A DNA stretch of 64,000 nucleotides, from contig NZ_JAPEOK010000002.1 in NCBI RefSeq assembly GCF_026341515.1, forward strand, positions 310,001-374,000, in the 5' to 3' direction. A program made the translations under genes and the position numbers. The notes under the pieces are model-generated. The model was given only the letters and a program-made list of their open reading frames with translations, was not told the origin of the DNA and searched no databases. The DNA comes from Streptomyces sp. NBC_00878. Lineage in GTDB: Bacteria > Actinomycetota > Actinomycetes > Streptomycetales > Streptomycetaceae. Shown here in pieces: positions 936-64,000 of this stretch; within the stretch, counting starts at the first letter, position 1; each line of letters begins with the position of its first letter.

Positions 936-949
936 CGGGAGCTGACACC

Positions 950-7092: not shown

Positions 7093-17934
<10,842 letters not shown>

Positions 17935-17987
17935 CCCCGCGCCGCACCACCCCGGCGCCGCCAAGCAATCAGGGAGCGACACCGACC

Positions 17988-28472: not shown

Positions 28473-28491
28473 CCTCACTCTCCACCGAGAT

Positions 28492-28524: not shown

Positions 28525-28560
28525 GTCCCGTCGGCGGACGGCACGCGCGGCAGGCTCCGT

Positions 28561-28609
28561 CAGTCGGTGCTGTGCCGGAGAGCACCGGACAGTCGGTGCC
28601 GCGCCGGAG
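28561..28609. repeat. Two imperfect 20-bp direct repeats in the convergent gap
   Basis: CAGTCGGTGCTGTGCCGGAG at 28561-28580 recurs 29 bases on as CAGTCGGTGCCGCGCCGGAG (28590-28609), with two differences. The stretch 28525-28721 otherwise shows no gene or strong motif. This is probably a local duplication. Confidence 0.45.
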
Positions 28610-28721
28610 CGTGTGCACCCGGGAAGACCACCCGGCTCCCGGTCCCTGAGGGCCAGCCGCCCACGGCACCGGTCACCGACACGGCGGCGCATGTCTTCCG
28701 TCCCGCATCGGCGGTATACGA

Positions 28722-28752
28722 CTCAGCCGCCCCGGGACCCGGGACGGCTGAG
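28722..28752 (-). terminator. Hairpin terminator for the LAL regulator gene
   Basis: Arms CTCAGCCGCCCCGGG and CCCGGGACGGCTGAG pair over 15 positions with one mismatch. The element is placed 60 bases beyond the stop of the minus-strand regulator, in the convergent gap with PKS B. The self-complementary centre may also let it act in both directions. Confidence 0.65.
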
Positions 28753-28811
28753 GGGCACTGCGGTCGGCCGGAGGCGTGGCCGACGTGGGCGGTCGGAGAG
28801 GAGGTCGGGAA

Positions 28812-38002: not shown

Positions 38003-38003
<1 letters not shown>
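32541..38003 (+). CDS. Type I PKS C: module 5 (KS-AT-DH-KR-ACP)
   Basis: 1820 residues from GTG 32541. ATG 32484 is an in-frame alternative adding 19 residues. The later start is preferred because [27 protein letters not shown] is the usual beginning of this class of docking coil. KS Cys206 (DTACSSS); AT Ser663 (GHSVG) with HAFH, so malonyl-Co[13 protein letters not shown] and DAVLH; KR with GGTGGLG, FSS and [10 protein letters not shown] Ser1697. The KR is odd: the LDD position reads VHN (Asn1474), without the Asp that marks B-type ketoreductases, and the A-type Trp is also absent. The C-terminus [13 protein letters not shown] is a class-1a-like docking peptide. Its stop shares a base with the start of PKS D (TAATG). 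Confidence 0.93.
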
Positions 38004-42739
<4,736 letters not shown>

Positions 42740-42806
42740 CCCGGGACTCCCACGACACCCCCGCCAACCCGCAGCTCACCTTTTCGCACAGAAGTGGCGT
42801 CACTCG

Positions 42807-45800
42807 ATGACCAACGACGAAAAGCTCCTCTCCTACCTCAAGCGGGTCTCCAGCGACCTGCACCAGACCCGCCAGCGCCTGCGCGAGGTGGAGACCCAGG
42901 ACAAGGAACCGATCGCCATCGTCGGGATGAGCTGCCGCTTCCCCGGCGGGGTCAGCACGCCCGAGGAGTTCTGGCGGCTCGTCCACGAGGGCACCGACGC
43001 CATCGGTGACTTCCCCGACGACCGGGGCTGGGACGTCGACGGGCTGTACGACCCGGACCCGGACGCCACGGGCAAGAGCTACGTCAAGCGCGGGGGATTC
43101 CTCCACGACGCGGGCGACTTCGAGCCGGACTTCTTCGGCATCAGCCCGCGGGAAGCCGTCGCGATGGATCCGCAGCAGCGACTGCTGCTGGAGGTCTCGT
43201 GGGAGGCCCTGGAACGGGCCCGTATCGCCCCCGACTCGGTGCACGGCGCCCGGGTCGGGGTGTTCGCCGGCACCAACGGACAGGACTACCGGGACCTGCT
43301 GGCGAAGATGCCGCAGGACACCGAGGCGGCGCTGGGCACCGGCGCCCTCGCGGCGGTGATCTCCGGCCGCATCTCCTACACCCTCGGCATCGAGGGACCC
43401 GCGGTCACCATCGACACCGCGTGCTCCTCGGCCCTGGTCGCGGTGCACCTCGCCGTGCAGGCGCTGCGGGCCAAGGAGTGCACCCTCGCCCTGGCCGGCG
43501 GCGCGACCGTGATGTCCACCCCCGGCTCGTTCGTCGCCTTCAGCCGCCAGCGCGGACTCGCCCTGGACGGCCGCTGCAAGTCCTTCGCGGACTCCGCCGA
43601 CGGCACCGGCTGGAGCGAGGGCGCGGGCATGCTCCTCCTTGAGCGGCTCTCCGACGCCCGCCGCAACGGCCACGAGGTGCTGGCCGTGGTCCGCGGTTCC
43701 GCGGTCAACCAGGACGGCGCGTCCAACGGCCTGACCGCCCCCAACGGCCCCTCCCAGCAGCGCGTCATCCGTGCCGCGCTGGCTTCCGCCCAGCTCGCGC
43801 CCACCGACGTGGACCTGGTCGAGGCCCACGGCACCGGCACCACCCTCGGCGACCCGATCGAGGCGCAGGCCCTGCTGAACACCTACGGCCAGGACCGGCC
43901 CGAGGACACACCGCTGTGGCTGGGCTCGGTCAAGTCCAACATCGGCCACACCCAGGCCGCCGCCGGTGTCGCCGGTATCATCAAGGTCGTCATGGCCATG
44001 CGCCGGGGCGTACTCCCGAAGACCCTGCACGTCGACGAGCCGTCGACCAAGGTCGACTGGACCGCGGGCCGTGTGCGCCTGCTGACGGAGAACCAGTCCT
44101 GGGCCGAGCTCGACCGGCCCCGCCGCGCCGCGGTGTCCTCCTTCGGCGCCAGCGGAACCAACGCGCACACCATCATCGAACAGGCCCCCGCCGAAGAGCC
44201 CGCCGAGGAGCCGGTGGCGGACGAACCGGCCCCGCGTACGGCGCCGCCCCTCCTGCCGTGGCTGGTCTCCGGCCGCACCGAGCAGGCGCTGCGCGACCAG
44301 GCCGCGCGTCTGGCGGCCGCCGTCGGCGACCTGGACCCGGCGGACGTGGCGTACTCGCTCGCCGCCACCAGGACCGCCCACCAGCACCGGGCCGTGATCC
44401 TCGGCGCCGACCGCGACACGCTGCTCACGGGACTGGCGCGGGTGGCCGAGGGCGGGACCGGCACCGCCCGCGGCCGCACCGTCAAGGGACTGACCGCGTT
44501 CCTGTTCACCGGCCAGGGCTCCCAGCGCGCGGGCATGGGCAAGGAGCTGTACGAGCACTTCCCGGTCTTCGCCCGCGCCTTCGACGAGATCTGCGAACTG
44601 TTCGGCGACGGCCTGCGGGAGACGGTGTTCGCCGCCGACCCCGAGCCGCTGAACCGCACCGAGCGCACCCAGACCGCGCTGTTCGCGTTCGAGGTCGCGC
44701 TGTACCGGCTGGTGGAATCCTGGGGCCTGACCCCGGACTACCTGGCCGGACACTCCATCGGCGAGATCGCCGCCGCCCACGTCGCGGGCGTACTGGACCT
44801 GCGCGACGCGACCACGCTGGTGGCGGCCCGCGGCCGGCTCATGCAGGCGCTGCCCGAGGGCGGCGCCATGATCGCCGTGCGCGCCGCCGAGGCAGACGTG
44901 ACGCCCCTGCTGACCGAACACATCAGCATCGCCGCCGTCAACGGCCCCGAGTCCGTCGTGGTCTCCGGCGACGCCGCCGAGGCCGAGGCGCTGGCCGCAC
45001 GGTTCGAGAAGACCCGGCGGCTGAAGGTCTCACACGCCTTCCACTCCCCGCTCATGGCCCCCATGCTGGACGAATTCCGGCGCGTCACCGAGGGCCTGAC
45101 GTACCACCGGGCGACCCTCCCGGTGGTCTCCAACGTCACCGGCACGCTCGCCGCCCAGGACCTCGCCACTCCCGACTACTGGGTGCGGCACGTGCGCGAC
45201 GAGGTCCGCTTCCACGACGGTGTACGCACCCTGCGGACCGAGGGCGTCACCCGCTTCCTGGAGATCGGCCCGGACGCCGTCCTGACCGCCATGGCCCGCG
45301 AGTGCGTCGAGGGCGACGGCACCGACGCCGTACTCGCCGCCGCCACCCGCCGCGAGCGGTCCGAGACCGAGACCCTGCTCACCGCCCTCGCGCAGCTGCA
45401 CACCGCGGGCGCCTCGCCCGACTGGACCGCGTTGTTCACCGGCGCCCGCACGGTCGACCTGCCCACCACCGCCTTCCAGCGCGAACGGTTCTGGCCCGAG
45501 CCGAGCACCGCCACCGGCGACGTCAGCTCCGCGGGTCTCGACTCCGCCGACCACCCGCTGCTCGGCGCGGCCACCATGCTCGCCGACTCCGACGGCGCCG
45601 TCCTCACCGGACGCCTCTCGGTGCGCACTCACCCCTGGCTCGCCGACCACGTCGTCGGCGGCTCCGTGGTGGTCCCCGGCACCGCCATGGTCGAACTGGC
45701 GGTCCGCGCCGGCGACCAGGTCGGCTGCGGCCACGTCGAAGAACTCGCCCTGGAAATACCGCTGGTACTGCCCGAGGGCGACGGCGTCCGCGTCCAGGTC

Positions 45801-48800
45801 GCCGTCGGCGCACCCGACCCCTCCGGCACCCGTACGGTCCATGTGTACGCCCGTGCCGAGAACCTGCCCGCCGACGAGCCGTGGACCCTGCACGCCTCCG
45901 GCCTCCTCGGCCCGGCCCCGGCCGCCGTCGGCACCCACCTCACCACGTGGCCGCCGGAGGACGCCGAGGAACTGGACACCACCGGACTGTACGAACGGCA
46001 CGCCGCCGCGGGCCTTGACTACGGGCCCGTGTTCCAGGGCCTGCAGGCCGCCTGGCGGCGCGGCGAGGAACTGTTCGCCGAGGTCCGGCTCGCCGAGCGG
46101 CCCGCCGCGGAGGCGGCCCGCTTCGGCCTGCACCCGGCGGCCTTCGACGCCGCCCTGCACGCCCTGGCCCTGCTCGGCGACGGCTCGGCCGACGACACAG
46201 CCCGCCTGCCGTTCATGTTCGCGGGCGTGTCCCTGCACGCCGTCGGCGCGTCCGTACTGCGCGTACGGCTGGTGCCCACCGGGCCCGACGTGTTCGCCGT
46301 CGACCTGGCCGACGCCACCGGCGCCCCGGTCGCCACCGTCACCTCCCTGGCCTCCCGGCCGCTGACCAACCTGCGCTCCGAGCGGGACGAGGCGGCCGAC
46401 GCGCTGTTCACCGTCGGCTGGCACCCCCTGCCGCTGGACGACACCGCTCCCGACACCGACCACCGCCTGCTCCAGAGCGCGCCCGGCGCCACCCCCGACG
46501 CGGTCCGGGCCGCCACGCACGCCGCACTCGCCGCCCTCCAGGACGACGACCCCCGCCCGCTGGCCGTCGTCACCCGCGGCGCGGTGGGCGTCGCGGGCGA
46601 GGACGTCCCCGACCTGGCCGGCGCCGCCGTCTGGGGCCTGGTGCGATCCGCGCAGTCGGAGAACCCCGACCGCTTCGTGCTGCTCGACCTCGAACCCGGC
46701 ACCGACCCGGCCACCGTGCTGCCCGCCGTACTGGCCTCCGGCGAACCACAGGTCGCCGTACGGGACACCGCCGCGTACACCGCCCGCCTGGTACGCGCCG
46801 AGACCGCCGCCGACGCCCCGGGCCTGGACCTCGACCCCGACGGCACGGTGCTCCTGACCGGCGCCACCGGCGGACTCGGACCCGTCCTCGCCCGCCACCT
46901 GGTGACCGCGCACGGAGTACGCCGTCTCGCGCTGCTCAGCCGCGGCGGCGCCGCCGACGCCCTGGTCGCCGAACTGGCGGACCTCGGCGCGACCGCCACC
47001 GTGCACGCCTGCGACATCGCCGACCGCGACGCCCTCGCCGCGGTCCTGGCCGAGATTCCCGCCGCCCGCCCGCTCACCGCCGTCGTCCACGCCGCGGGCA
47101 CCCTCGACGACGGCGTGGTCACCTCCCTGACCCCCGAGCGGATCGACGCAGTGCTGCGGCCCAAGGTCGACGGCGCGATCAACCTGCACGAACTGGCCTC
47201 GCACCCCGGCCTGAAGGCGTTCGTGCTGTTCTCCTCGGTCGCCGGCACCGTCGGTGCGCCGGGCCAGGGCAACTACGCCGCCGCCAACGCCTTCCTGGAC
47301 GCCCTCGCCGCCCACCGCCACGCCCAGGGCGCCCCCGCCCTGTCCCTGGCCTGGGGCCCGTGGGCCCCCCTCGGCGGTGGCATGGTCGGCACCCTCGACG
47401 AGACCGACCGCGCCCGCATCTCCCGCGGCGGCATGAGCGACCTGACGGCCGAGGAGGGCACCGCACTGTTCGACGCGGCGGCCCGCACCGGCAGCCCCGC
47501 CGTGGCACCGGTCCGCCTCAGCCTGTCGGCGCTGCGGGCCCAGGGCGCCGCCCTCGCCCCGGTCTTCCGCGCCCTGGTGGGACGTACCGTGCGCCGCGAG
47601 GCCGCGGCCGAGGGCTCCGGCCTCAGCTTCGCCGAACGGATCGAATCGCTGGACGGTGAGGAGCGCACCGCGGCCCTGCTGCGCACCGTGCGCGCCCAGG
47701 TCGCCGCCGTCCTCGGGCACGCCAACCCCGATGCCATCGAAGCCGACCGGGCCTTCAAGGACCTCGGCTTCGACTCGCTCGCCGCGATCGAACTGCGCAA
47801 CGCGCTGACCGCCGAGACCGGCCTGCGGCTGCCCGCCACGCTCATCTTCGACTACCCCTCGCCCGACGCCCTGGCCGCCTACCTCGACGCCCAGGTCGGC
47901 GGGGCCCGCACAGGATCCCGCCGCACCCGGCGCACCGACCGGGCCCGCCCCGACGAGCCCCTCGCCATCGTCGGCATGGCCTGCCGCTACCCCGGCGGCG
48001 TACGCAACCCGCGGGACCTGTGGCGGCTGGTCGCCGACGGCACCGACGCCATCAGCCCCTTCCCCGGCAACCGCGGCTGGGACGTCGACCGGATCGTCGA
48101 CCCCACCCGACAGCGCCCCGACACCTCGTACGTCGGAGAAGGCGGCTTCCTCACCGGCGCAGGGGACTTCGACGCCGCGTTCTTCGGCATCAGCCCCAAG
48201 GAAGCCCTCGTCACGGACCCGCAGCAGCGGCTCATGCTGGAGGCCTCCTGGGAAGCGCTGGAGAGCGCGGGCATCGACCCCGGAACCCTCAAGGGCAGCC
48301 GCACCGGCGTGTTCGCGGGCGTCCAGTACCACGACTACTTCGGCAGCTTCGGCTCCGGCAGCATCATCTCCGGCCGGGTCGCCTACACACTCGGCCTGGA
48401 AGGCCCGTCGCTGTCCGTCGACACCGCCTGCTCCTCGTCGCTCGTGGCGCTGCACCTCGCCGGACAGTCCTTGCGCCAGGGCGAGTCGACCCTCGCCCTG
48501 GTCGGCGGCGTCGCGGTGATGGCCACCCCGGAGACGTTCATCGAGTTCAGCCGCCAGGGCGCACTGGCCCCCGACGCCCGTACCCGGGCCTTCGCGGACG
48601 CCGCGGGCGGCACCGTATGGGGCGAGGGCGTCGGAGTCCTCGTCGTGGAGCGGCTGTCGGACGCCCGCCGCAACGGGCACGAAGTACTGGCCGTCGTCCG
48701 CGGCACCGCGGTCAACCAGGACGGCGCCTCCAACGGCCTGACCGCGCCGAACGGTCCGTCGCAGGAGCGCGTGATCGAACAGGCCCTGGCCGCCGCCCAG

Positions 48801-51800
48801 TTGACCGTGGCCGACGTGGATGTGGTGGAGGCGCACGGCACCGGCACCACCCTGGGCGACCCGATCGAGGCACAGGCCCTGCTGAACACCTACGGCCAGG
48901 GGCGTTCCGAAGACGCCGCGCCGCTGTGGCTGGGGTCGATCAAGTCGAACATCGGCCACACCCAGGCCGCCGCCGGTGTGGCAGGCGTCATCAAGATGGT
49001 GATGGCGATGCGCGAAGGCGTACTGCCACGCAGCCTGCACGTGGACGAGCCCTCCACCAAGGTGGACTGGTCGGCGGGCGCGGTCCGCGTGTTGACCGAG
49101 CAGCGGGAGTGGCCCGACGCGGGCCGTCCGCGGCGCGCCGGTGTCTCGTCGTTCGGGATCAGCGGCACCAACGCCCACGCCATCATCGAACAGGCACCGG
49201 ACCGAGCCCCCGAACCCGCCACCGAGCCCGTCGGGGACGCGGACGGCGCACTCGCCCTCCCGTGGCTGCTCACCGCCAAGACGCCCGCCGCGCTGGCGGA
49301 CCAGGCGGCGTCCCTGCTCGCCCACCTCGACACCCACCCCGGCCTCGACCCGTCCGGCGTCGGCTGGTCGCTGGCCACCGACCGCGCCCACTTCGCCCAC
49401 CGCGCTTCGATCAACGCCGCCGGTACCGCGGAACTGCGCGGCGCCCTCGCGGCCCTGGCCGCCGGAACCACGGCCCCCGGCCTCGGCGAGGGCACCGCCA
49501 CACGCCGCGCCCGCCCGGTGTTCGTCTTCCCCGGCCAGGGCTCCCAGTGGTCGGGCATGGCCACCGCACTCATGGAGACCTCCCCGGCGTTCGCCGCCCG
49601 CATGGCCGAGTGCGCCGTCGCCATCGAGCCGTACACGGACTGGGACTTCCGCACAGAACTGAGCGGGACCCTCGACCGTGTCGACGTGGTCCAGCCGCTG
49701 CTGTGGGCCGTCATGGTGTCCCTGGCGCACACCTGGACCACCTGCGGTGTCACCCCGTCCGCCGTCATCGGCCACTCCCAGGGCGAGATCGCCGCCGCCT
49801 GCGCGGCGGGCGCGTTGTCCCTGGAGGACGGCGCCCGCATCGTCACCCTGCGCTCCAAGGCCATCGCCGTGGACCTGTCGGGCGGCGGCGGCATGATGTC
49901 CGTCGGCGAGGGCGCCGACGCGGTGCGGGCGCGGCTGACCGCATGGGACGGCCGTCTGTCGGTCGCCGCGGTCAACGGCGCCGGCTCGACGGTGGTCTCC
50001 GGAGACGCCGACGCCCTCAAGGAACTCCACACGCGGCTGCGGGCGGAAGACGTCCGCGCCAAGCTGCTCCCCGTCGACTACGCCTCGCACAGCGCGCACG
50101 TGGAGTCCATCCGGGAGCAGTTGCTTGAGGTGCTCGACGAAGTCCGGCCGCGCAGCGCCGACATACCGTTCTACTCCACCGTCACCGGCGGCCCGATCGA
50201 CACCGGCGAACTCGGCGCCGAGTACTGGTACACGAACCTGCGCGGCACTGTGCTGTTCGAGCAGGCCGTGCAGGCCGCCATCGGCGACGGGCACGCCCTG
50301 TTCATCGAGTCCAGCCCCCACCCGGTGCTCACCGTCGGCATCCAGGAGACCGACGACGGCGTGGCCGCCATCGGCTCGCTGCGCCGCGACGACGGCGGCC
50401 GGGACAGGTTCCTCGGTGCGCTCGGCGAGGCCTTCACGCACGGCGCGGTCATCGACTGGGAGGCAGCCTGCGAGGGCCGCCGCCCGCACCGCGTACCGCT
50501 GCCCACCTACGCCTTCCAGCACGACTGGTACTGGCTGGACAGCAACGCCGGCGGCGCCGACGTCACCTCCGCCGGCCTCGCCCCCACCGACCACGCCCTG
50601 CTCGGCGCCACGATGGTGCGCGCCGACAGCGAGGGCACGGTCCTCACCGGCCGCCTCTCCGCGGGCACCCACCCGTGGCTGAACGACCACCGCGTCGGCG
50701 GGCAGTTGCTCTTCCCCGGCACCGGCTACCTCGAACTCGCCCTGCGCGCAGGCGACCAGGTCGGCTGCGCCGACATCGTGGAACTCACCCTCCAGGCACC
50801 GTTGGTGCTCCCCGAACACGGTGCCGTCCAGCTCCAGGTCGTCGTCGGCGCGCCCGAGGGGGAGCACCGCCCGCTCGCCGTCTGGTCCCGCCCCGAGAAC
50901 CCCGACGAGGAACTGCCGTGGACACGGCACGCCGACGGCCTGCTGGCCCCGACGGGCACGATCCCGGCCGACGCGGAGAGCCTGACCGCCTGGCCGCCGC
51001 AGGGCGCCGAACCCGTCCCGCTCGACGGCCTGTACGACGAACTGGCCGACCTCGGCCTCGGCTACGGCCCCCTGTTCCAGGGGCTGCGGGCAGCCTGGCG
51101 TACCGGCGACGAGGTGTACGCCGAAGTCGCCACCGAGGCCGTGGCCGACGGCTTCGGCCTGCACCCGGCACTGTCCGACGCCGCCCTGCACACGGTCGGA
51201 CTCACCGACGCCGCCGCCGACGAGGCACTGCTGCCCTTCGCCTGGTCCGGGGTGCGGCTGCACGCCACCGGCGCGACCGCACTGCGCGTCCGCGTACGGC
51301 CGACCGGCGAGGGCACCGTCTCCCTGACACTCGCCGACACCGCAGGCGCCCCCGTCGCCACCGTCGGCTCCCTCGTCCTGCGCCCCCTGCGGACCGAGGC
51401 CCTCGCCGCCGCGAGCCGCTCGGCCCGCACCGGCTCCCTGTACCGCGTCGACTGGGTCACCGCACCGGCCGCCGCCGACGGGGACACGCCGGCCCTGGAG
51501 GTGCTGCGCGCGCCCTCCGGCACGAGCGCGGCCGACGTACGCGCCGCCGTCGTCGCCGTGCTCGACGGGCTGCAGTCCCGGCTGGCCGACGACCAACTCG
51601 CCGACAGCACCCTCGTCGTGGTCACCGGAACCGACCCGGCGGGCGCCGCCGCGGGCGGTCTGGTGCGCTCGGCGCAGACGGAGAACCCCGGCCGCATCGT
51701 CCTGGTCGAGGCCGCCGAGGACATCGCCGACGAGCAGCTCGCCGAGGCCGTCGCCACCGGTGAACCCCACCTGGCCCACCGCGACGGCGCCTGGCGGGTG

Positions 51801-54800
51801 CCCCGCCTGGCCAGGACCGCGCCCGCCGAGGCCGCCGAACCCGCCGCCACCCTCGGCGACGGCACCGTCCTGGTCACCGGCGCGAGCGGCGCGCTGGGCG
51901 GCATCGTCGCCCGCCACCTCGTCACCGAGTGGCACGCCAAGCACCTGCTCCTGCTCAGCCGGCGCGGCGCCGACGACGAACTGGTCGCCGAACTGACCGC
52001 GCTGGGAGCCGAGGTCACCAGCGCCGCCTGCGACGTCGCCGACCGCACCGCGCTCGCCGCCACCCTGGACGCCATACCGGCAGACCGGCCGCTGACCGCC
52101 GTGATCCACGCGGCCGGCGTCCTCGCCGACGGCGTACTGTCCTCGCTCACCCCCGAGCGCGTCGACGCGGTGTTCCGCCCCAAGGTCGACGCCGCGTGGC
52201 ACCTGCACGAACTCACCGCGGACCTGGACCTGTCGGCGTTCGTCCTGTTCTCCTCGGCAGCCGCCACCCTCGGCTCGCCGGGCCAGGGCAACTACGCCGC
52301 CGCCAACGCCTACCTCGACGCCCTGGCTGTGCACCGGCGGACGGCCGGGCTGCCCGCGCACTCCCTCGCGTGGGGCCTGTGGGCCCAGGCCAGCGGCATG
52401 ACCGGCACCCTCGACGAGAGCGACAAGTCCCGCATCGCCCGCGGCGGTGTCGCGCCACTGGAGACCGACGAAGGACTGGCCCTCTTCGACGCCGCCCTGC
52501 GCGGCCCCGACCCCGCGGTCCTGCCGGTCAAGCTGCAACAGGCCGGACTGCGCGCGCAGGGCGACGCGCTCGCCCCGCTGTTCCGCGGCCTGGTCCCCGT
52601 CCAGCGGGGCAACGCGGCCGGCCAGGGAGCCGCGGGCGGCTCCGACTCGCTGCGCGACCGGCTGGCCACCCTGCTGGAGGTCGAACGCGAGCCGTTCCTC
52701 ACCGAACTGGTGCAGAGCCACGTCGCCGCCCTCCTCGGCTACAAGTCGGCGCAGGACGTCGGCAGCACCCTGCCCTTCCGGGAGTTGGGCTTCGACTCGC
52801 TGGCCGCCGTCGAACTGCGCAACGGGCTCACCGCCGCCACCGGCCTGCGCCTGCCCGCGACACTGGTCTTCGACCACCCCACCCCCGCCGAACTGGCCCG
52901 CTTCCTCCAGAGCGAGCTGACCGCCACACTGAGCGGCCCCGCGGCCGTCGCCCGGACCACGCCCCGCCGCGCCACCGACGACGAGCCGATCGCCATCATC
53001 GGCATGGGCTGCCGCTTCCCCGGCGACGTCGACTCGCCGGAGGACCTGTGGCGGCTGGTCTCCCAGAGCCGGGACGCCGTCGGCGAGTTCCCCGCCGACC
53101 GCGGCTGGGACGTCGACTCCCTGTACGACCCGACCCTGGACCGGCCCGGCACCAGCTACACCAAGCACGGCGCGTTCCTCTACGGCGCCGCCGACTTCGA
53201 CCCCGCGTTCTTCGCCATGGACGACGAGGAGACGCTGGTCACCGACCCGCAGCAACGGCTGCTCCTGGAGACCTCCTGGGAAGCGCTCGAACGCGCCTCC
53301 ATCGACCCGGCCACCCTGCGCGGCTCCGACACCGGCGTGTTCGCCGGCGTCATGTACCACGACTACTTCGGCAGCTTCGGCTCCGGCAGCGTGGTCTCCG
53401 GCCGCGTCGCCTACACCCTGGGCCTGGAGGGCCCGACCCTGTCGGTGGACACCGCCTGCTCCTCGTCGCTGGTGGCGCTGCACCTGGCCGCCCAGTCGCT
53501 GCGCCAGGGCGACTGCTCCCTCGCACTGGCCGGGGGAGTGACCGTCATGGCCACCCCGGGCACCTTCGTGGAGTTCAGCCGGCACCGCGGGCTGTCCCGC
53601 GACGGACGGTGCAGGCCGTTCGCCGACTCCGCCGACGGCACCGGCTTCGGCGAGGGCGCGGGCGTGCTCCTGCTGGAGCGGCTCTCCGACGCCCGCCGCA
53701 ACGGCCACCGGATCCTCGCCGTGCTGCGCGGCACCGCCGTCAACCAGGACGGCGCGTCCAACGGCATCACCGCCCCCAACGGCCCCGCCCAGCAGCGCGT
53801 CATCCGCCGCGCACTGGAAGCGGCGGCCGTGTCCGCGGCCGAGGTCGACGTCGTCGAGGCGCACGGCACCGGCACCACCCTGGGCGACCCCATCGAGGCC
53901 CAGGCCCTGATCGCCACCTACGGCGCGGACCACACCGAGGAACGCCCGCTGTGGCTCGGCTCGGTCAAGTCCAACCTCGGCCACACCCAGGCCGCCGCCG
54001 GTGTCGCCGGAGTCATCAAGATGGTGCAGGCCATCCGCCACGAGACCCTGCCCGCCACCCTCGGCGTCGACGAGCCGTCCCGGCACGTCGAGTGGGACGG
54101 CGGCAACGTACGACTGCTCACCGAGTCCCGGGCCTGGCCCGACCCGGGTCACCCCCGCCGGGCGGGCATCTCCTCCTTCGGTATCTCCGGCACCAACGCG
54201 CACGTGGTCATCGAGGCCGCGCCCGCGCAGGAGCCCGCCGAGCAGGCCGCGCCCACCGCTCCGGCGGTCGACCCCGTGCCGTGGCTGCTGTCCGGCCACA
54301 CCCCGCAGGCGCTGCGCGCCCAGGCCGGCCGGCTCCTCGACCACCTGGCCGCCGACCCGGACGCCGACCCGCACCGGATCGCCGGCGCCCTCGCCACCGC
54401 CCGCACCCCGCTCGCCCACCGCGCCGCCGTCCTCGGCCACGGCCTGGACGACCTGACCGCGGGCGTGCGGGCCATCGCGGACGGGACCGCGCCGCCGCAC
54501 GGCAGCACCGGCACCGCGGCCGACGGACGGCTCGCCTTCCTGTTCTCCGGCCAGGGATCCCAACTGCCGGGCATGGGCAGGCGGCTCGCGGAGACGTTCC
54601 CCGCCTTCGCGGCGGCCTTCGACGAGGTCCGCGCCCACCTGGACCCGCTGCTGGACCGCCCGCTCGCCGAGGTCCTGGACTCCGCCGAACTGCTGGAGCG
54701 CACCGAGTACACCCAGCCCGCGCTGTTCGCCGTCGAAGTGGGCCTCTACCGGCTGCTGGAGTCCCTCGGCGTCCGCCCGGACGTGCTCGCCGGACACTCC

Positions 54801-57800
54801 GTCGGCGAGTACGCCGCCGCGCACGTGGCGGGCGTCCTCACGCTGGAGGACGCCTGCACCCTGGTCGCCGCCCGCGGCCGGCTCATGCAGGCGCTACCTG
54901 AGGGCGGCGTGATGATCGCGGTCAAGGCCACCGAGGACGCGGTCGTCCCGCTCCTCACCGACGGCGTGGGCATCGCGGCGGTCAACGGGCCCGACTCCGT
55001 GGTCCTCTCCGGCGAGGCCGAGGCAACCCGGGCGATCGCCGCCCGCTTCGAACGCACCAAGGAACTCGCCGTCAGCCACGCCTTCCACTCGGCCCTCATG
55101 GAGCCGATGCTCCAGGAGTTCCGCGAGATCGCCGAGTCGCTGTCGTACGGACCGCTGCGCATCCCGCTCGTCTCCACCCTCACCGGCGCCCCGGCCGCCC
55201 CCGACGAGTTGTCGACGGCCGAGTACTGGGTGCGGCACGCCCGCGAGGCGGTCAGGTTCGCCGACGCCGTCACGGCACTGGAGGACACCGGCGTCCGACG
55301 GTTCGCCGAGGTCGGGCCCGGCAACGCCCTCACCGCGGCGGCCACCGAGAGCCTGCGCGACGACACCGGCGCCCACGCCGTGGTACCGCTGCTGCGCAAG
55401 GACCGCGACGAGCCCGCGGCCCTGCTCGGCGGGCTCGCCGCCCTGCACGTACACGGCACCGCCGTCGACTGGGCGGCGCTGCTGCCGCACCGCGACGGTT
55501 CGGACCTGCCCACGTACGCGTTCCAGCGCAGCCGCTACTGGATGAACGGTGACGTCCCCGGCCACCGCGCCGCCGCCGACCACCCGCTGCTCGGCACCGC
55601 CGTGGAACTCGCCGGAGCCGACGGCAGCCTGCACACCGGCCACCTGTCACTGGCCGACCACCCGTGGCTGGCGGACCACGCCGTCGGCGGCGTGCCACTG
55701 CTGCCGGGCACCGCGTTCGTCGAGATGGCACTCGCCGCCGGCGCCCGCCTGGACTGCGGCACCGTCGACGAACTGACCATCGCCGAACCGCTGGTGCTGC
55801 CCGAGGAAGGCGCCGTACGGCTCCAGTGCACCGTCGGAGAACCGGACGCCTCCGGTGCCCGCGCCTTCCAGGTGTACTCGACCGTCGCCGACGGCGATCC
55901 ATGGACCACCCACGCCACCGGCCTACTGCGCCCCGGCCCCGAAACCGCCGGCTACGACCTGGCGGCCTGGCCGCCGGCCGACGCCGAACCGGTGGACGTG
56001 GACGGCCTGTACGAGAGGCTGGCGGAGCTGGGCGCCCAGTACGGGCCCCGCTTCCAGGGCCTGCGGGCGGCCTGGCGGCTGGGTGACGAGGTGTTCGCCG
56101 AGGTCGCGGTCCCGACCGGTGACACCCCCGGCACCCTCGGCCTGCACCCGGCGCTGTTCGACGCGGCGTTGCACGCCATCGGGCTGCGCGAGGGCACCAA
56201 GGAGCGTATGACGCTGCCGTTCGCCTGGAGCGGCGTCGATCTGCACGCCGTGGGCGCGACCGCCCTGCGGGTGCGGATCGCCCCGCACGGGCCCGACGCG
56301 GTGACCATCGAGGCCGCCGACGACGCCGGGGAACCGGTCGTACGGGTCGCGTCGCTGTCCCTGCGGGAGGTGAACCCCGAGCGGATCGCCGCGGCCGCCG
56401 CGGGCGGACAGGACTCGCTGTTCATGCTCGACTGGACGCCGGTGCCCGGTGACGCCGCGCCGCAGGCCGGCCGCTGGACCGTGCTGGGCCCCGACCGCGA
56501 GGCGCTCGCCGACGCACTGGCCGGCGAGGTCGCCGAGGTGACCGTGGCGGCCGGCCTGGAGGAAGCCGCCGACGCCGCCTCCGACACCGTCGTCCTCGTC
56601 CACACCGGCGGAGGGAACCCGGACGAGATCCGCGCGGGGGCGCACCGGCTGCTGGACCAGGTGCAGACCTGGCTGGCCGACGACCGGTTCGCCGACGCCA
56701 CGCTGGTCGTGGTGACCCGCGGCGCGGCCGGTCCGGCCCACGCGGACGTCACCGACCTCGGGGGCGCCGCCGCCTGGGGCCTGATCCGCTCCGCGCAGTC
56801 CGAGCACCCCGACCGCATCGTGCTGGCCGACCTCGACGACTCCGAGGCGTCCTACCGGCTCCTGCCGTCGGTCGTCGCCTCCGGCGAGCAGCAACTGGTG
56901 CTGCGCGACGGCACTGTCAGCGCACCGAAGCTGGTCCGCGCACCGCGCCTGGCCGAGGAGGTCCCGGTCGACTGGTCCGGCGGCGTGCTCGTCACCGGCG
57001 GCACCGGGGCGCTGGGCCGGCTGGTGGCCCGCCACCTGGTCACGGCGCACGGCGCGCCCCGGCTGGTGCTGCTCAGCCGCAGCGGCCCGGACGCGCCCGG
57101 CGCCGACGAGCTGCGGGACGAACTCACCGCGCTCGGCGCCGAGGTGGCCGTCGTCGCCTGCGACGCCGCCGACCGGGAGGAACTGGCCCGCGTCCTGGAC
57201 ACGCACCCGGTGTCCGCGGTGGTCCACACCGCCGGTGTCCTGGACGACGGCATGCTCACCTCCCTGACACCGGAACGACTGGACGGCGTACTGCGCCCGA
57301 AGCTGGACGCCGCCTGGCACCTGCACGACCTCACCAAGGACCGCCCGCTCACCGCGTTCGTGCTGTTCTCCTCGGCGGCCGGCCTGCTCGGCAGCCCCGG
57401 CCAGTCCTCGTACGCCTGCGCCAACGCCTTCCTCGACGGACTGGCCGCGCACCGCAGGTCACTCGGTCTGCCCGCGGTCTCGCTGTCCTGGGGTGCCTGG
57501 GCCGGCGGCGGCATGGCCGACCGGCTCGACGACGCCGACAGCCGCCGGATGGCGGCCGGCGGGGTGCTTCCCCTCGACGAGGAGACCGGGCTCGGCCTGT
57601 TCGACACGGCCGTCGCCCGCGAGGAGGCCATCCTGATGCCCGCCCGCCTCGACACCGCGGCGATCGGCGGATCCGGAGCGGTCCCGCCGCTGCTGCGCGG
57701 CCTGGTCCGGACACCGCGCAGGGCGGCCAGGGCCGCGGCGTCCGGCGCCTCGACGGCGCTGCGACGTGAACTGGCCTCGCTCGCCGCCGAGGAACGGACT

Positions 57801-58268
57801 CCGAGGCTGCTGGAGCTGGTCCGCGACGAGGCGATCCGGGTACTCGGCGTCGACGAGTTCGAACCGGGCCTGCCCTTCAACGAGTTGGGCTTCGACTCGC
57901 TCACCGCCGTCGAGTTCCGCAACCGGCTCAACGAGGTGACCGGGCTGCGGCTGCCGGCCACCCTCATCTTCGACTACCCCAACCCTGCCGCCCTCGCAGA
58001 CCACCTCGGCACCGAACTGGCACCACGGCAGCGCACCGCCGCCGACGCCGAGGAGGACGCCGTCCGGCGGGCGTTGACCGCCATCCCGGTGGCGAAACTG
58101 CGTGACGCGGGCCTGCTGGACAACCTGCTCGAACTGGCCGGCCTGCGGCCCGCGGGCGAGGCGGCCGCGAACGGCGCGGAAAGCCGCGAATCCATCGACG
58201 CGATGGACGCGGCCAGCCTGATCAGCATGGCGCTCGACGACCTCGTCGGCGACGACGACACCCTGTGA
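42807..58268 (+). CDS. Type I PKS E: modules 7, 8 and 9, each KS-AT-DH-KR-ACP
   Basis: 5153 residues from ATG 42807; the N-terminal coil [20 protein letters not shown] fixes the start. Module 7: KS Cys206, AT Ser650 with HAFH (malonyl), [20 protein letters not shown] Ser1657. Module 8: KS Cys1875, AT Ser2324 in GHSQG with YASH from 2425 (methylmalonyl), [20 protein letters not shown] Ser3331. Module 9: KS Cys3551 with an unusual [10 protein letters not shown] in place of [12 protein letters not shown] Ser3998 with HAFH (malonyl), [17 protein letters not shown] and [10 protein letters not shown] Ser5031. No ER. Product: a triene with one methyl branch. The C-terminus ending [17 protein letters not shown] resembles that of PKS A and fits the N-terminal coil of PKS F. 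Confidence 0.95.
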
Positions 58269-58282
58269 CGAGGAGGGGGAAC

Positions 58283-61200
58283 ATGCCCGAGCCCGAGAAT
58301 CAGGACACCCGGATGGTCGAGGCGCTCCGCGCCTCGCTCAAGGAGATCGACCGGTTGCGGGAGCGCAACCGCGCCCTGACGGCGGCAACACGGGAACCGA
58401 TCGCGATCGTCGGCATGTCATGCCGGTACCCGGGCGGCGTCCGCTCCCCGCAGGAGCTGTGGGACCTGGTCGCGCGCGGCGGGGACGGCATCACCGAGTT
58501 CCCCGCAGACCGAGGCTGGGACCCGGACCTCTACGACCCTGAGCCGGGCCTGGAAGGCCGGTCCTACACCCGCGAGGGCGGATTCCTGCACGACGCGGGC
58601 GACTTCGACGCCGGATTCTTCGGCATCAGTCCGCGCGAGGCCCTGCTGATGGACCCCCAGCAGCGACTGCTGCTGGAGGGCTCCTGGGAGGCGCTGGAGA
58701 GCGCCGGCATCGACCCGGCGACCCTGCGGGGGAGCCGCACCGGAGTGTTCGCGGGGCTGATGTACCACGACTACTTCGGCAGCTTCGGCTCCGGCAGCAT
58801 CGTCTCCGGCCGCGTCGCCTACACCCTCGGCCTGGAGGGCCCGACACTCACGGTCGACACCGCGTGCTCCTCGTCCCTGGTCACCCTGCACCTGGCCGTA
58901 CAGTCCCTGCGCCAGGGCGAGTCGACGCTCGCCCTGGCCGGGGGAGTGACGGTGATGGCGTCCCCCGGGACCTATGTGGAGTTCAGCCGCCAGGGCGCCC
59001 TGTCCCCGGACGGCCGGTGCCGGTCCTTCGCCAAGGACGCCAACGGCACCGGATTCGCCGAGGGTCTGGGCGTACTCGTCCTGGAGCGGCTGTCGGACGC
59101 ACGGCGCAACGGGCACGAGGTGCTCGCCGTCGTCCGCGGCTCGGCCGTGAACCAGGACGGCGCGTCCAACGGCCTGACCGCGCCCAACGGCCCGTCCCAG
59201 CAGCGCGTCATCGAACAGGCCCTGGCCGCCGCCCGGCTGTCGGCCACCGACGTGGACGTCGTCGAGGCGCACGGCACCGGCACCACGCTGGGCGACCCGA
59301 TCGAGGCACAGGCGCTGCTGGCGACCTACGGCCGACAGCGGCCCGAGGACGCGCCGTTGTGGCTGGGCTCGGTCAAGTCCAACATCGGCCACACCCAGGC
59401 CGCCGCCGGTGTCGCGGGCGTCATCAAGATGGTCATGGCGATGCGGCACGAAGCGCTGCCGCCGACCCTGCACGCCGCCGAGCCGTCCGACCAGGTCGAC
59501 TGGACGACAGGGGGCGTGCGGCTGCTCACCGAGGCGCGGCCGTGGTCGGAGCGGGACCACCCCCGCCGCGCCGGGATCTCCTCGTTCGGCATCAGCGGAA
59601 CCAACGCGCACGTCATCGTCGAGCAGGCCGCCCCTGTCGCCGCTGACGTGCCGGACAACACGGAGGACACCGGAAGCACCGCGGGGGAGTCCGCGGCCCC
59701 GGTGCTGCTCTGGCCGCTGTCCGCACGCTCAGGGCAGGCCCTGCCCGCGCAGGCCGAGCGGCTGCGGACCTTCGTCGAGAGCCGGCCGGACCTCCAACCC
59801 GCCGCCGTCGCCCGGGCGCTGGCCACCCGGCGGCCCGCCTTCGACCACCGGGCCGCCGTCACCGGCGGGGACCGGGAGCAACTGCTCGCCGGGCTCAGCG
59901 CCCTCGCCGCCGGTGACGGATCGCCCGCCGCGGTCACCGGCCGGGCCCGCACCGGTGCTCGTACGGCCTTCCTGTTCACCGGGCAGGGCGCGCAGCGGCT
60001 CGGCATGGGCCTCGAACTGCGCGCGCACCACCCGGTGTTCGCCGACGCCTTCGACGAGATCGACTCCGAACTCGGCCTGGACCTGGCCGGAGTACTGGCC
60101 GGGGACGACCCCGACGTGGTGCACCGGACGCTGTACGCGCAGACCGGCCTGTTCGCCTTCGAAGTGGCCCTGTTCCGGCTGCTGGAGTCCTGGGGAGTTC
60201 ACCCCGACCACCTCGCCGGGCACTCCGTCGGTGAGCTGGCCGCCGCCCACGTCGCGGGCGTCCTCACACTGGAGGACGCCTGCACCCTGGTCGCCGCCCG
60301 GGGCCGGCTCATGCAGGCGCTGCCCGAGGGCGGCGCGATGGTCGCCGTGCAGGCGAGCGAGGACGAGGTCCGCCCGCTGCTCGACGACCGGGTCGGCCTG
60401 GCCGCCGTCAACGGCCCGACGTCCGTGGTGCTCTCCGGCGAGCGGGACGTGGTGCTCGCCGCCGCCGAGGGCTTCGCGAAGACCAAGCGCCTGACCGTCT
60501 CGCACGCCTTCCACTCACCCCTGATGGACGGCATGCTCGACGACTTCCGGGCCGTCGCCGAGAGCCTGTCCTTCCACGAGCCGCGTATCGCACTGGTGTC
60601 CGCCCTCACCGGCCGCCCCGCCGGAGACGACGTGCGCGATCCCGGGTACTGGGTGCGGCACGTCCGCGAGACCGTACGGTTCGCCGACGCCGTCGCCGCG
60701 CTGACCGGCGCCGGCGTCACCCGCTTCGTGGAACTCGGCCCCGACGCCGTACTGACCGGCATGGCCCGCGAATGCGCCGACCCGGACACCGCGACGTTCA
60801 CCGCGCTCGGCCGACGGAACGGCGCCGAGTCCGCCGTGCTGCTGTCCGGCCTCGCCCGGCTGTACACCGACGGCCTGTCGCCCGACTGGTCCGCGGTGTT
60901 CCCGGGGACGGCCTCCACCGAACTGCCCACGTACGCGTTCCAGCACCAGCGGTACTGGCTCAATGCCGAAGTCGCCCTCACCGTAGGCCCGTTGGCCGCC
61001 CCGGTATCCGCCGAACCGGCCGACGGCACGGCGGAGCCGCTGCGGGACCGGCTGGCCGCGGCCTCCCCGGCCGAACAGGAGGCCCTGCTGACGGACGTGG
61101 TGCGGGCCCAGGCCGCCGCGGTCCTCGGCCATGACGGCCCGGAAGCAGTCGAGGCCGACGCCGTCTTCCTGGAGGTCGGCATGGACTCGGTGTCCGCGGC

Positions 61201-62179
61201 CGAACTGCGCGGCGCCCTGGGAACCGCCCTCGGTACGACCGTTCCCGCAGGCGCCGTCTTCGACCACGGCACTCCCGTCGCGCTCGCGGCCCACCTGCGC
61301 GAGCAACTGGCCCACGGCGGCCAGGACCGCGGGGGAGAGGACCCCTCGGGGACGGAGTCGATCGGCGGACTGCTGCGCCGCGCGGCGGCCGAGGGACAGA
61401 TGGCGAAGGGCTTCGACCTGCTGAAGACGGTGGCCGAGATCCTGCCCGGCTTCTCCACGGTCGCCGAGCTGGGGGAAGTCCCCGCTCCGGTGCGCCTGTC
61501 CACCGGCGACGGCTCGCCCCGGCTGATCTGCCTGCCCTCACCGATGGCGCTGGGAGGCGCCCACCAGTACGCGCGGTTCGCCACCCACTTCCGGGGGCGC
61601 CGCGAGGTCCTCGTACCCGCCGTTCCCGGGTTCGTCCCGGGCGAGGCGCTGCCCCGCTCGGTGGACGCCGTCGTCGAGGTGGTCGTCGAGGGCATCCGCA
61701 CGGCGACGGCCGACGGCCGGCCGTTCGTCCTCGTCGGCTACTCCTCCGGCGGCCAGTTCGCGCACGCCGCGGCCGAGGTCCTGGAGAAGGCCGGCCGACC
61801 GGCCGCCGGTGTCGTCCTGCTCGACACCTACCTGCCCGGCGACGACGGCAAGGACGAGCTGTGGCGCCAGATGTTCGACGGAATGCTTGACCGGGAGTCG
61901 TCCCTGGGCGGGTTCAGCACCGCCCGGCTCGCCGCGATGAGCCGCTACAGCGACCTCATCGTCGACTGCCTGCCGGGCGCGCTCTCCGCGCCGGTCCTCT
62001 TCGTACGGCCCGACGAGTCCTTCGCCGCCGGATCGGGCACCGAGGACTGGCGCGCCACCTGGGCCGGGGACCACGCACTGCGCGAGGTGCCCGGCACCCA
62101 CTTCACCATCCTGGAGGACTCCGCGGTCAGCACGGCCGAGACGGTGGAGGAATGGTTGACAAGTGACGGGTCGGCGTGA
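58283..62179 (+). CDS. Type I PKS F: module 10 (KS-AT-ACP) and terminal thioesterase
   Basis: 1298 residues from ATG 58283, with AGGAGG at 58271-58276; GTG 58265 is less likely. The N-terminal coil is [25 protein letters not shown] Cys195; AT Ser648 (GHSVG) with HAFH (malonyl). The chain then goes directly to an ACP (Ser969 in VGMDSVS), with no KR or DH. The thioesterase has Ser1154 in GYSSG, an Asp in LLDTYLPG and His1273 in GTHFTIL. The last extension is therefore not reduced, and the TE should release a 3-oxoacyl chain by attack of the starter-derived amine, giving a beta-keto macrolactam. TE-catalysed lactamisation is known for this class; the beta-keto amide is inferred. Confidence 0.95.
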
Positions 62180-62206: not shown

Positions 62207-62246
62207 CCGTGAGGCGTGGCCGTATTTCGACGGCCACGCCTCACGG
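62207..62246 (+). terminator. Strong bidirectional hairpin between PKS F and the PqqD-like gene
   Basis: Perfect 17-bp arms CCGTGAGGCGTGGCCGT and ACGGCCACGCCTCACGG with the loop ATTTCG. On the + strand TCAATTTATT follows. It sits 28 bases after the PKS F stop and 6 bases from the stop of the convergent minus-strand gene, so it can end both transcripts. Confidence 0.9.
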
Positions 62247-62251: not shown

Positions 62252-62500
62252 TTATTGAACGGCATCGCGAAAATGCGCCAACCATGCGTCGACATCACAG
62301 CGAACACTGGCCGGATCCGCATTCAATTGCCTGGCTATTTCCAGCGAGGCAAGCTCAGGATCCCAGTCCTGTTGTTGCAGCGCGAGCCACATCATCGTGC
62401 CCTTCGGGCCGCATCGGTGACTCTTCCCGGTATGTGGCGAGAAAAGCTCCAGGAACCCGTCCGGCAGGACCCGCGGGACCACATTCAGCTCATGCCGCAT
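62252..62500 (-). CDS. Stand-alone PqqD-like / RiPP recognition element (RRE) fold protein
   Basis: 82 residues from ATG 62500. The minus strand carries GGAGGA at 62511-62516, ten bases upstream; GTG 62506 is a second candidate. The pattern is that of PqqD-family proteins: RVLPDGFLELFSPHTGKSHRC (three-strand sheet), GPKGTMMWLAL (the t-G-xx-iW helix), then DPELASLEIARQLNADPASVRCDVDAWLAHF (the winged helices with V-x-x-DV-x-x-fL). This fold binds leader peptides in PQQ, lasso and other RiPP pathways. No partner maturase is in the window, and no role in macrolactam assembly is known to me. Third-position GC is visibly lower than in the PKS genes, suggesting a different origin. Family assignment is by motif only. 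Confidence 0.72.
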   Translation of the reverse strand: MRHELNVVPRVLPDGFLELFSPHTGKSHRCGPKGTMMWLALQQQDWDPELASLEIARQLNADPASVRCDVDAWLAHFRDAVQ

Positions 62501-62717
62501 GCCCACACGATCCTCCGCAAGCGCCCTGCCTGCGGATTCTCCCCCGCAAGCAGGACGGAACGCCGGATAACCCCTCATACGCCAGAGAACACCGTGATGA
62601 GGCGACCGGCGCGTTCTCTGCGGCCTCACTTTCGTGCCTCACGAGCGGTCCGTGCTGGAATCCGCGCTGTGCCCGGAGAATCTTTTCGGCCGTGCGGGCA
62701 CCGTGTCCTGGCCACAT
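62490..62717 (-). CDS. Small Cys-containing open frame, possible RiPP precursor (hypothetical)
   Basis: 75 residues from ATG 62717. GGGAG stands about ten bases upstream on the minus strand, and the stop overlaps the PqqD-like start by 11 bases. The N-terminal half is charged (ARTAEKILRAQRGFQHG, then RHESEAAENAPVA). The C-terminal half is richer in Cys, Gly and Arg, with four Cys in CSLAYEGL, PSCLRG and GACGGSCGHAA. A leader-plus-core layout upstream of an RRE protein would suit a RiPP precursor. The codon bias is weak, however: one TTA Leu codon and several A/T-ending codons in the second half. No homologue is recognised. It may be only leader sequence of the PqqD-like mRNA. Confidence 0.25.
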   Translation of the reverse strand: MWPGHGARTAEKILRAQRGFQHGPLVRHESEAAENAPVASSRCSLAYEGLSGVPSCLRGRIRRQGACGGSCGHAA

Positions 62718-62846: not shown

Positions 62847-62890
62847 TTGACAGCAGTCGGCGGCGGCGGGGTAGAGAAACCTCTACCCCG
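62847..62890 (+). promoter_or_regulatory. Promoter with perfect inverted-repeat operator upstream of the ABC exporter
   Basis: TTGACA at 62847-62852 is a consensus -35 box. TAGAGA at 62872-62877 can serve as a streptomycete -10 (TAGRRT-like) with a 19-base spacer. Overlapping this -10 is a perfect inverted repeat: arms CGGGGTAGAG (62867-62876) and CTCTACCCCG (62881-62890) around AAAC. Size and symmetry are typical of TetR-family operators controlling exporters. The repressor gene is not in the window. Confidence 0.72.
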
Positions 62891-62985: not shown

Positions 62986-63786
62986 GTGCACACATCAGAC
63001 AACACCCGACACGAGCAGGCCGTAAGGCTGGACACCGTCTCGAAGATCTACGGCCGGGGTGACAACGAGGTGGCCGCGCTCAGGGACTTCACCATGAGTT
63101 TCGCCTCCGGCACCTTCACCGCCGTGATGGGTCCGTCCGGTTCGGGCAAGAGCACCTTCCTGCACTGCGCCGCGGGACTGGTCCAGCCCACCTCCGGCAC
63201 GGTCACCGTCGGCGGCGCCGACCTCGCCGGCCTGGACGACGTACAGCTGACGAGGCTGCGCCGCGACCGGGTCGGCTTCATCTTCCAGTCGTTCAACCTG
63301 CTGCCCGCGCTGACCGTGATGCAGAACATCATGCTGCCGCTGCAACTCGCCGGGAAGCGCGCCGACAAGGCCCTGGTCAAGAACGTCGTGCAGCGCGTCG
63401 GCCTGTCCGACCGGCTCGGCCACCTGCCGAGCCAGCTCTCGGGAGGCCAGCAGCAGCGTGTGGCCATCGCCCGCGCCCTGGTCACCCGCCCCGCCGTGAT
63501 CTTCGCCGACGAGCCCACCGGCGCCCTCGACACCCGGACCGCCGGGGCCGTCCTCGCGCTGCTGCGCGAATCCGTGAACGCCGCCGGACAGACACTGGTG
63601 ATGGTCACGCACGACCCGGTGGCCGCCTCCTACGCGGACCGCGTCGTGTTCCTCGCCGACGGCACGTTCGTCGGCGAGCTGCACCGGCCGACCGCCGAGG
63701 CCGTCGCCGCCCGCATGACCCGGCTCGGCGCCTGGGACGACGACAACTACCAGGCGGCCTCCACCGTGGCGGGAGGACAGTACTGA
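62986..63786 (+). CDS. ABC transporter ATP-binding protein, MacB/LolD type
   Basis: 266 residues. GTG 62986 has GGGGAG at 62975-62980. Complete nucleotide-binding domain: Walker A GPSGSGKST (49-57), Q-loop Gln101 in FIFQSFNLLP, signature LSGGQQQR (151-158), Walker B VIFADEP (171-177) followed by TGALD, and His209 in the switch MVTHDP. VGFIFQSFNLLPALTVMQNIMLPL is the hallmark of the MacB/LolD branch, which pairs with FtsX-like permeases. The following gene starts one base into its stop codon, so the two form an operon. Export of the macrolactam or another cluster product (self-resistance) is the likely role, judged from location. The operator-like repeat upstream suggests ligand-induced expression. 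Confidence 0.93.
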   Translation: MHTSDNTRHEQAVRLDTVSKIYGRGDNEVAALRDFTMSFASGTFTAVMGPSGSGKSTFLHCAAGLVQPTSGTVTVGGADLAGLDDVQLTRLRRDRVGFIFQSFNLLPALTVMQNIMLPLQLAGKRADKALVKNVVQRVGLSDRLGHLPSQLSGGQQQRVAIARALVTRPAVIFADEPTGALDTRTAGAVLALLRESVNAAGQTLVMVTHDPVAASYADRVVFLADGTFVGELHRPTAEAVAARMTRLGAWDDDNYQAASTVAGGQY

Positions 63787-64000
63787 TGTGGGCCCTGGCA
63801 TTCCGCACCCTGAAGTTCCGCAGGACCAGCTTCATCGCCACCTTCCTCGCCATGTTCCTCGGCGCCGCCATCGTCATCGGCTGCGGCGGTCTGATGGAGA
63901 CAGGCGTCCGCATGGTCGCCGACCCGCAGCGGTTCGACCGCACCGCGGTCGTCGTCACCGGTGAGCAGACCTACGACTCCGCCGCGCTGACCGAGCGCAA
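63786..64000 (+). CDS. ABC transporter permease, FtsX-like, N-terminal part (cut by window end)
   Basis: ATG 63786 overlaps the TGA of the ATPase gene by one base, and 71 complete codons are visible. The start MWALAFRTLKFRRTSF is the short basic cytosolic segment typical of FtsX-like permeases. It is followed by a hydrophobic helix (IATFLAMFLGAAIVIGCG) and then a soluble segment that would begin the extracytoplasmic domain. The rest of the gene lies beyond the window. Confidence 0.88.
   Translation, partial: MWALAFRTLKFRRTSFIATFLAMFLGAAIVIGCGGLMETGVRMVADPQRFDRTAVVVTGEQTYDSAALTER

Follow-up and report, generated by a model that had tools for sequence, protein, structure and literature searches.

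Proteins with the PqqD fold, the recognition elements (RREs) of ribosomally synthesized and post-translationally modified peptides (RiPPs), serve as a beacon for ribosomal peptide clusters; standalone RRE-like matches without lasso machinery have been considered as possible regulators or parts of unknown RiPP pathways, and LanB-like proteins were noted in polyketide clusters (PMC7470986). The sceliphrolactam (sce) cluster of Streptomyces sp. SD85 contains a gene, sceU, for a protein of 81 amino acids that is listed as "Unknown" in Table 2 of the 2018 description, with no fold given in the text of that table (PMC5785472). Here, we describe the counterpart of sceU in Streptomyces sp. NBC_00878, on a stretch of 64,000 nucleotides (contig NZ_JAPEOK010000002.1, positions 310,001 to 374,000) that we call the window and whose numbering is used throughout. 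The encoded protein very probably adopts the PqqD/RRE fold, its gene is a fixed and selected component of the sceliphrolactam-type cluster family, and we tentatively propose a regulatory role.

The small gene corresponds to sceU

Translation of the open reading frame (ORF) at 62252-62500 (minus strand) gives 82 amino acids and a single stop codon, at the end. As described in a first-pass annotation of the window, it lies between the terminal polyketide synthase (PKS) gene and the ATP-binding cassette (ABC) ATPase gene of an exporter, both on the plus strand. In SD85, SceU occupies the same place between the SceT PKS and the SceV ABC ATPase, with 81 instead of 82 amino acids, the gene order is the same and the sizes are close on both sides: the four PKS genes, the small gene and the four genes after it encode proteins of 1820/1578/5153/1304/82/266/837/403/214 amino acids, compared with 1824/1582/5150/1294/81/266/840/433/214 for sceQ to sceY (PMC5785472, Table 2). 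Both marks of the SceU group are found here, i.e. the placement between PKS and ABC genes on the opposite strand and the content and order of the sce genes. Because position, size, and gene order agree with the SD85 table, the comparison with SceU itself being by position and size, the window gene is almost certainly the counterpart of sceU. The SirexAA-E cluster was called homologous to the sce cluster (PMC5785472), and the relative from that strain is 56% identical to the window protein (L145). The gene itself is therefore not new, since it was already listed as sceU.

The strong GGAGGA ribosome-binding site noticed earlier is present at 62516-62511. An in-frame GTG at 62506 lies 5 nt after GGAGG, whereas the ATG at 62500 lies 11 nt after it. 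Since the spacing, in our reading, suits the GTG better, the product is probably an 84-residue protein starting there. The lower third-position GC content was also seen correctly (0.67 versus 0.93 in both flanking genes). It ranges from 0.63 to 0.84 in all 30 clade sequences measured, including that of the window, and is therefore a property of the gene family.

SceU is predicted to have a PqqD/RRE fold

Taken alone, the window protein matches PF05402 below threshold (E = 0.0031, 18.2 bits; gathering cut-off 23.4), and a scan against NCBIfam matched 0 families. In its family, however, PF05402 is matched at E ≤ 0.01 by 18 of the 28 members, and three of ten relatives scanned singly pass the cut-off (L055, 23.8 bits; L032, 27.7 bits; L037, 30.0 bits), with L055 belonging to the clade of the window protein. 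The predicted structure is a confident beta-beta-beta-alpha-alpha-alpha arrangement, the three strands and three helices of the PqqD topology. Because the relatives match PF05402 and the predicted structure agrees, the PqqD-like assignment of the first-pass annotation is upheld, and we consider the fold itself very probable. This provides a candidate binding cleft for a gene listed as unknown since 2018.

Two PqqD-type systems serve for comparison. PqqD of pyrroloquinoline quinone (PQQ) synthesis (5sxy; PF05402, TIGR03859) differs in that the window gene has no pqqA, pqqC or pqqE neighbors and its product no NCBIfam PqqD match. The same genome carries its true PqqD in a separate pqqC-pqqD-pqqE locus (L200, C1:9776283; 72.9 bits on TIGR03859), an internal contrast for this fold family within one genome, and we rejected a role of the window protein in PQQ synthesis on these grounds. 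The nearest solved structures are leader-bound RREs of lasso peptide systems, the B1 proteins (TbiB1, 5v1u/5v1v; 6jx3_B), with only 10–20% identity to the window protein. Lasso systems differ in their gene content, as no lasso cyclase, protease, or precursor was seen among the neighbors of sceU.

The likeness to lasso RREs, together with weak matches of 6 of the 28 family members to a lasso PqqD model (best E 0.0022), could suggest that SceU is a leader-peptide chaperone acting in trans for a cryptic RiPP. The clade neighbors, however, are PKS, ABC, kinase, regulator, and thioesterase genes with no maturase among them, and the real PqqD of the genome lies elsewhere, beside PqqC and PqqE. In agreement with the first-pass annotation, neither a RiPP maturase nor a cognate precursor was found in the locus, the rest of the genome not having been searched for maturases. 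Ten intergenic ORFs of 20–130 amino acids lie near the locus; those matching many relatives overlap the conserved promoter DNA at 62753-62985 in several frames and, in our reading, do not look like one peptide. We regard a chaperone function of this kind as highly improbable. The SceU family rather fits the unexplained set of standalone RREs (PMC7470986). As the clade is fixed in polyketide clusters and no adjoining maturase was seen, part of the matches to the RRE beacon may be something else.

The open-access literature searched contained no functional account of SceU or of a PqqD-type protein in polyketide clusters. That literature likewise mentioned neither the fold nor two findings described below: that the gene is fixed in sceliphrolactam-type clusters and that its relatives in polyketide clusters tend to lie beside regulators.

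sceU is a fixed and selected component of sceliphrolactam-type clusters

In a genus sample of 392 genomes, 38 showed a match to the window protein at E ≤ 0.01. Seventeen of these make up a close set, consisting of the window's own genome and 16 others at 48–69% identity. A scan of named genomes yielded 24 loci, the last of which is distant (32%), with S. silaceus (76%), S. minutiscleroticus, S. flaveolus, S. echinatus, S. eurythermus, S. tricolor, and S. niveus among the genomes covered. A tree of 49 family members places the window's set in one clade (support 99/97). Neighboring genes were labelled from in-house gene calls, BLAST, and motif matching; four shortened PKS genes labelled "AT272" in the resulting table are PKS by their thioesterase matches.

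In all 16 genomes evaluable for placement (the window's and 15 others), the gene sits on the opposite strand, with the terminal PKS gene on one side and the ABC gene on the other; the contig of the remaining genome, G102, breaks off next to the gene. Every one of the 17 genomes also encodes glutamate mutase, at 71–82% identity in those other than the window's. In 13 genomes it lies less than 60 kb away on the contig that carries sceU, and in 4 it lies on a different contig. Matches to the terminal thioesterase were present in 212 of the 392 genomes, with the best six first-look candidates scored per genome, and the 16 at 70% identity or more are the close set minus G102. Judged by these matches, no sceliphrolactam-type cluster without sceU was seen in the sample. 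Absence from otherwise identical clusters, which according to the first-pass annotation would have spoken against its view, was thus not found. That annotation had also considered the gene as the edge of an unrelated RiPP locus, an option we rejected in light of the fixed synteny.

Coding constraint points in the same direction. The median dN/dS is 0.22 (394 of 435 pairs, with dS < 2), and none of the 17 genomes shows a stop codon inside the matched region. Conserved relatives and a dN/dS of about 0.2 show that the ORF is more than a chance frame. Low third-position GC and the sub-threshold Pfam score could be taken as signs of a non-functional remnant, another option raised at first. Its probability is close to nil and we rejected it, given the purifying selection; the low third-position GC is shared by the whole clade, and the predicted fold is confident. 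sceU is a fixed, selected component of the sceliphrolactam-type cluster family.

At one site (residue 59 of the window protein, where the window itself has TTG), 19 of 31 clade sequences carry an in-frame TTA codon; the loci include L128, L129, L131-L145, L049, and L050. For comparison, TTA occurs in 18 of 722 called genes of the compared regions and, in 4 of 18 regions, also in the response-regulator gene. TTA codons often mark regulatory genes in Streptomyces, and a dependence on bldA is possible.

Relatives of SceU tend to lie next to cluster regulators

Outside the window's clade, the family extends to other kinds of clusters. A family profile gave 39 strong places (E < 1e-15) and matches in 50 of the 392 genomes at E ≤ 0.001, with the best 14 first-look candidates scored per genome and the sequences from which the profile was built included in the count. 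Relatives at 33–46% identity were found in 16 plasmid records. Polyketide-type genes are annotated in eight of ten plasmid regions, one of which has just a ketoacyl-acyl carrier protein (ACP) synthase III, and LAL (large LuxR-type) and SARP regulators, phosphopantetheinyl transferases, and condensation-domain proteins occur around the plasmid relatives. The plasmid proteins annotated as "PqqD family" (e.g. on NZ_CP108277.1, NZ_CP016083.1 and CP040467.1) are homologous to the window protein and encoded beside polyketide genes, mostly directly upstream of a LAL gene, unlike the placement in sceliphrolactam-type clusters. Some relatives are located in aromatic polyketide clusters.

In the loci L058, L059, L061, L062, L065, and L067, the gene is surrounded by part or all of a set of five labels, namely carboxylase, type II thioesterase, VinK-like transferase, TetR, and LAL; around the gene of L060, from the same sequence group, none of these was found. 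By their content these loci seem to resemble the weddellamycin/piceamycin macrolactam clusters, in which production ceased when either the LuxR regulator WdlA or the TetR regulator WdlB was deleted (PMC11051340).

We counted regulator genes around 32 loci that fall outside the window's clade, of which two represent one place. In 11 of the 32, the gene is followed on its own strand by a LAL gene as its immediate neighbor, compared with 1 of 405 other genes there; the same control over all 48 loci gave 1 of 542 genes. Within a distance of two genes, a LAL gene is found in 17/32 loci versus 55/459 other genes. A TetR gene related to the one at 69228, just past the end of the window, is adjacent in 8/32. 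Taken together, a LAL gene within two genes or an adjacent TetR gene occurs in 21 of the 32 loci, compared with 59 of 459 other genes. The 69228-type TetR gene was found in nine examined loci, all of them PqqD-positive, and in none of the eight PqqD-negative regions described below. In the window's clade, 14 of the 16 other genomes contain a full-length LAL orthologue (57–66%). In nine genomes it shares a contig with sceU, less than 50 kb away, and in five it lies on a different contig.

These neighborhood facts favor, without proving, a link of SceU-like proteins to cluster regulators, and it is from these statistics that a regulator is inferred as the partner. The TTA codon found in 19 of the 31 clade sequences also speaks for such a link. 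RREs clasp a short peptide in the cleft between the third strand and the last helix, as is known from work on lasso RREs. SceU, as an RRE-type adaptor drawn from the RiPP setting and now acting on the regulation of its own cluster, would clasp a short peptide segment of its partner in the corresponding cleft; this mode of binding is suggested by the description of RREs as leader-peptide binders (PMC7470986). The likeliest partner would be the LAL protein encoded in the window or the TetR protein at 69228, and the outcome would be a tuning of the transcription of the macrolactam genes. We put forward such a regulatory adaptor, drawn from gene order and fold comparison, as a tentative proposal with a somewhat less than even chance of being correct. 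More doubtful still is its extension, that a whole family of RRE-fold proteins has moved out of ribosomal peptide biosynthesis and provides polyketide clusters with clasp adaptors for LAL- and TetR-type regulators.

Several observations weigh against this proposal. In the window's clade, neither a LAL nor a TetR gene ever adjoins sceU (0/16 loci), and within the stretches examined the 69228-type TetR gene was not found in the other clusters of this clade. LAL genes also occur in regions without a PqqD protein (G051, G190, G137), for which reason we rejected an obligate partnership with LAL. Moreover, because all loci with LAL as the next gene group together in the family tree, in a single clade with 13 rows (support 88/92), they are not independent; this layout may be one old arrangement kept across differing clusters. 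Among the draft assemblies, G102 has no LAL orthologue and G378 only fragments of one. Finally, the window copy of sceU reads TTG at the TTA site, and the other leucine codons of the TTA clade are about equally conserved.

If the extension to a whole family is true, it would add a small-protein control layer over antibiotic genes, and standalone "RRE" annotations in polyketide clusters would not signal a RiPP. Should SceU act on the LAL or TetR regulators, it would offer a handle to switch on silent macrolactam clusters. Since the RRE fold resembles a winged helix-turn-helix, SceU could alternatively bind an operator itself as a self-sufficient DNA binder, which we consider quite unlikely.

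Only two of the ten plasmid regions have annotated RiPP genes: a tgmABC ATP-grasp RiPP cassette lies three to five genes from the PqqD-like gene of one Streptomyces plasmid (L036, 7781-10154), and mycofactocin genes lie about 11 kb from that of another locus (L037, 1-628). This proximity is perhaps a coincidence.

Roles in polyketide assembly or export

A glutamate mutase match was found in 127 genomes (best four first-look candidates scored per genome), and we examined eight glutamate-mutase-positive, PqqD-negative regions among them. None of the eight contained a match to the family profile. The starter set is complete in G051 and G190, which also have a PKS, and partial in G180 and G053; G380, G115, and G165 lack a matching PKS and G137 the decarboxylase. 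Because of the two full and two partial counter-examples, beta-amino-acid starter chemistry does not generally require SceU, and we rejected it as a general factor for 3-methylaspartate-derived starter units. The first-pass annotation had suggested an accessory factor for the aminoacyl/ACP chemistry of the pathway. In view of G051, G190, and the relatives in aromatic clusters, this specific form is not supported; the wider idea of an accessory to a polyketide pathway holds.

A narrower version is that SceU docks on a linear PKS segment, e.g. the ACP-thioesterase linker of the terminal module, or on the VinJ/VinK-like enzymes, and thereby aids release or deprotection. In all 16 evaluable clusters the gene keeps its place beside the terminal PKS gene, which fits such a role, as does the orphan cassette described below, where exporter and two-component system occur without SceU, which seems to travel with biosynthesis. 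Conversely, G051 and G190 lack a profile match despite their full starter sets and PKS genes, the relatives in aromatic clusters serve another kind of assembly line, and sceU is convergent with the PKS gene, with a terminator-like hairpin in between (one found versus a mean of 0.7 in shuffles). We therefore regard docking on the assembly line as unlikely.

Another possible role is in self-protection, with SceU acting on the exporter or on the sensor kinase and response regulator and modulating SceV-W or SceX-Y. sceU is divergent from the ABC gene throughout the clade, and in a distant macrolactam-type cluster (G371, L076) the PqqD-like gene has a TetR gene on one side and, on the other, homologues of the kinase SceX and the response regulator SceY (48% and 65%). 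Most of the distant relatives, however, do not adjoin this exporter, and the orphan cassette below keeps its palindrome without a SceU-like gene. This makes such a partnership very unlikely.

The palindrome in question lies in the divergent promoter region between sceU and the ABC gene, is unique within the window, and is followed shortly downstream by a conserved GCCAATGTGC. The promoter-region DNA matches that of the window in 20 of 21 clade loci (blastn, E ≤ 0.001), and the palindrome aligns in the window and all 21 loci, with altered arms in a few (L042, L056, L057). In genome G265, an orphan ABC-permease-kinase-response regulator cassette (L231, C50:272001-291000; 5956-11262) shows 77, 72, 72, and 86% identity to its counterparts in the macrolactam clusters. 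No SceU-like gene was found in the 19 kb around it, and the genome has no match at E ≤ 0.001. No PKS gene was labelled nearby, and G265 is absent from the match lists for thioesterase, family profile, and glutamate mutase. Upstream of the cassette the palindrome is kept, with paired, compensating changes on both arms, and this region agrees with the consensus at 41 of 49 positions, compared with a shuffle maximum of 27. The G265 genes may form a stand-alone self-protection cassette. Because cassette and palindrome are kept without a SceU-like gene, we assign the palindrome to the exporter cassette; judging from this one orphan cassette, the palindrome seems to go with the exporter and two-component system, and SceU with the polyketide genes. 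Our guess is that the palindrome is the response-regulator operator of the two-component system.

Organization of the cluster

The cluster follows the order VinJ-like amidase, VinK-like transferase, ACP, two adenylating enzymes, pyridoxal phosphate (PLP) decarboxylase, glutamate mutase S and E, two PKS, LAL, four PKS, small gene, ABC ATPase, permease, histidine kinase, and response regulator (Table 1).

Table 1. Features of the window. Cluster genes without a Pfam name are named by their place and size in the sce table.
Feature	Position	Strand	Remarks
Starter-unit ACP, two adenylating enzymes, PLP decarboxylase (SceH-K-like)	684..5297	+	Decarboxylase by Pfam; others by place and size
Glutamate mutase S and E (SceL/SceM-like)	5294..7023	+	By place and size in the sce table; marker of a 3-methylaspartate-derived starter
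PKS genes matching SceN, O, Q, R, S	7180..58268	+	By order and size
LAL regulator (large LuxR-type), SceP-like	28812..31817	-	AAA plus GerE
Terminal PKS (SceT-like)	58265..62179	+	C-terminal thioesterase
Terminator-like hairpin, 17 pairs	62207..62246	+	Between the convergent terminal PKS gene and sceU; pattern match only
Gene for SceU-like protein, predicted PqqD/RRE fold	62252..62506	-	Probable GTG start at 62506, 84 amino acids; ATG at 62500 gives 82
Shine-Dalgarno GGAGGA	62511..62516	-	Read from the sequence
Palindrome GGGGTAGAG-AAAC-CTCTACCCC	62868..62889	.	Perfect; about 100 nt upstream of the ABC gene
ABC ATPase (SceV-like)	62986..63786	+	PF00005
Permease, start (SceW-like)	63786..64000	+	FtsX-type by the relative in L049; runs past the window end

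At the left edge, the VinK/SceG-like transferase gene enters the window. Beyond its right end, the permease gene is followed by the histidine kinase and response regulator genes, as seen in L080.
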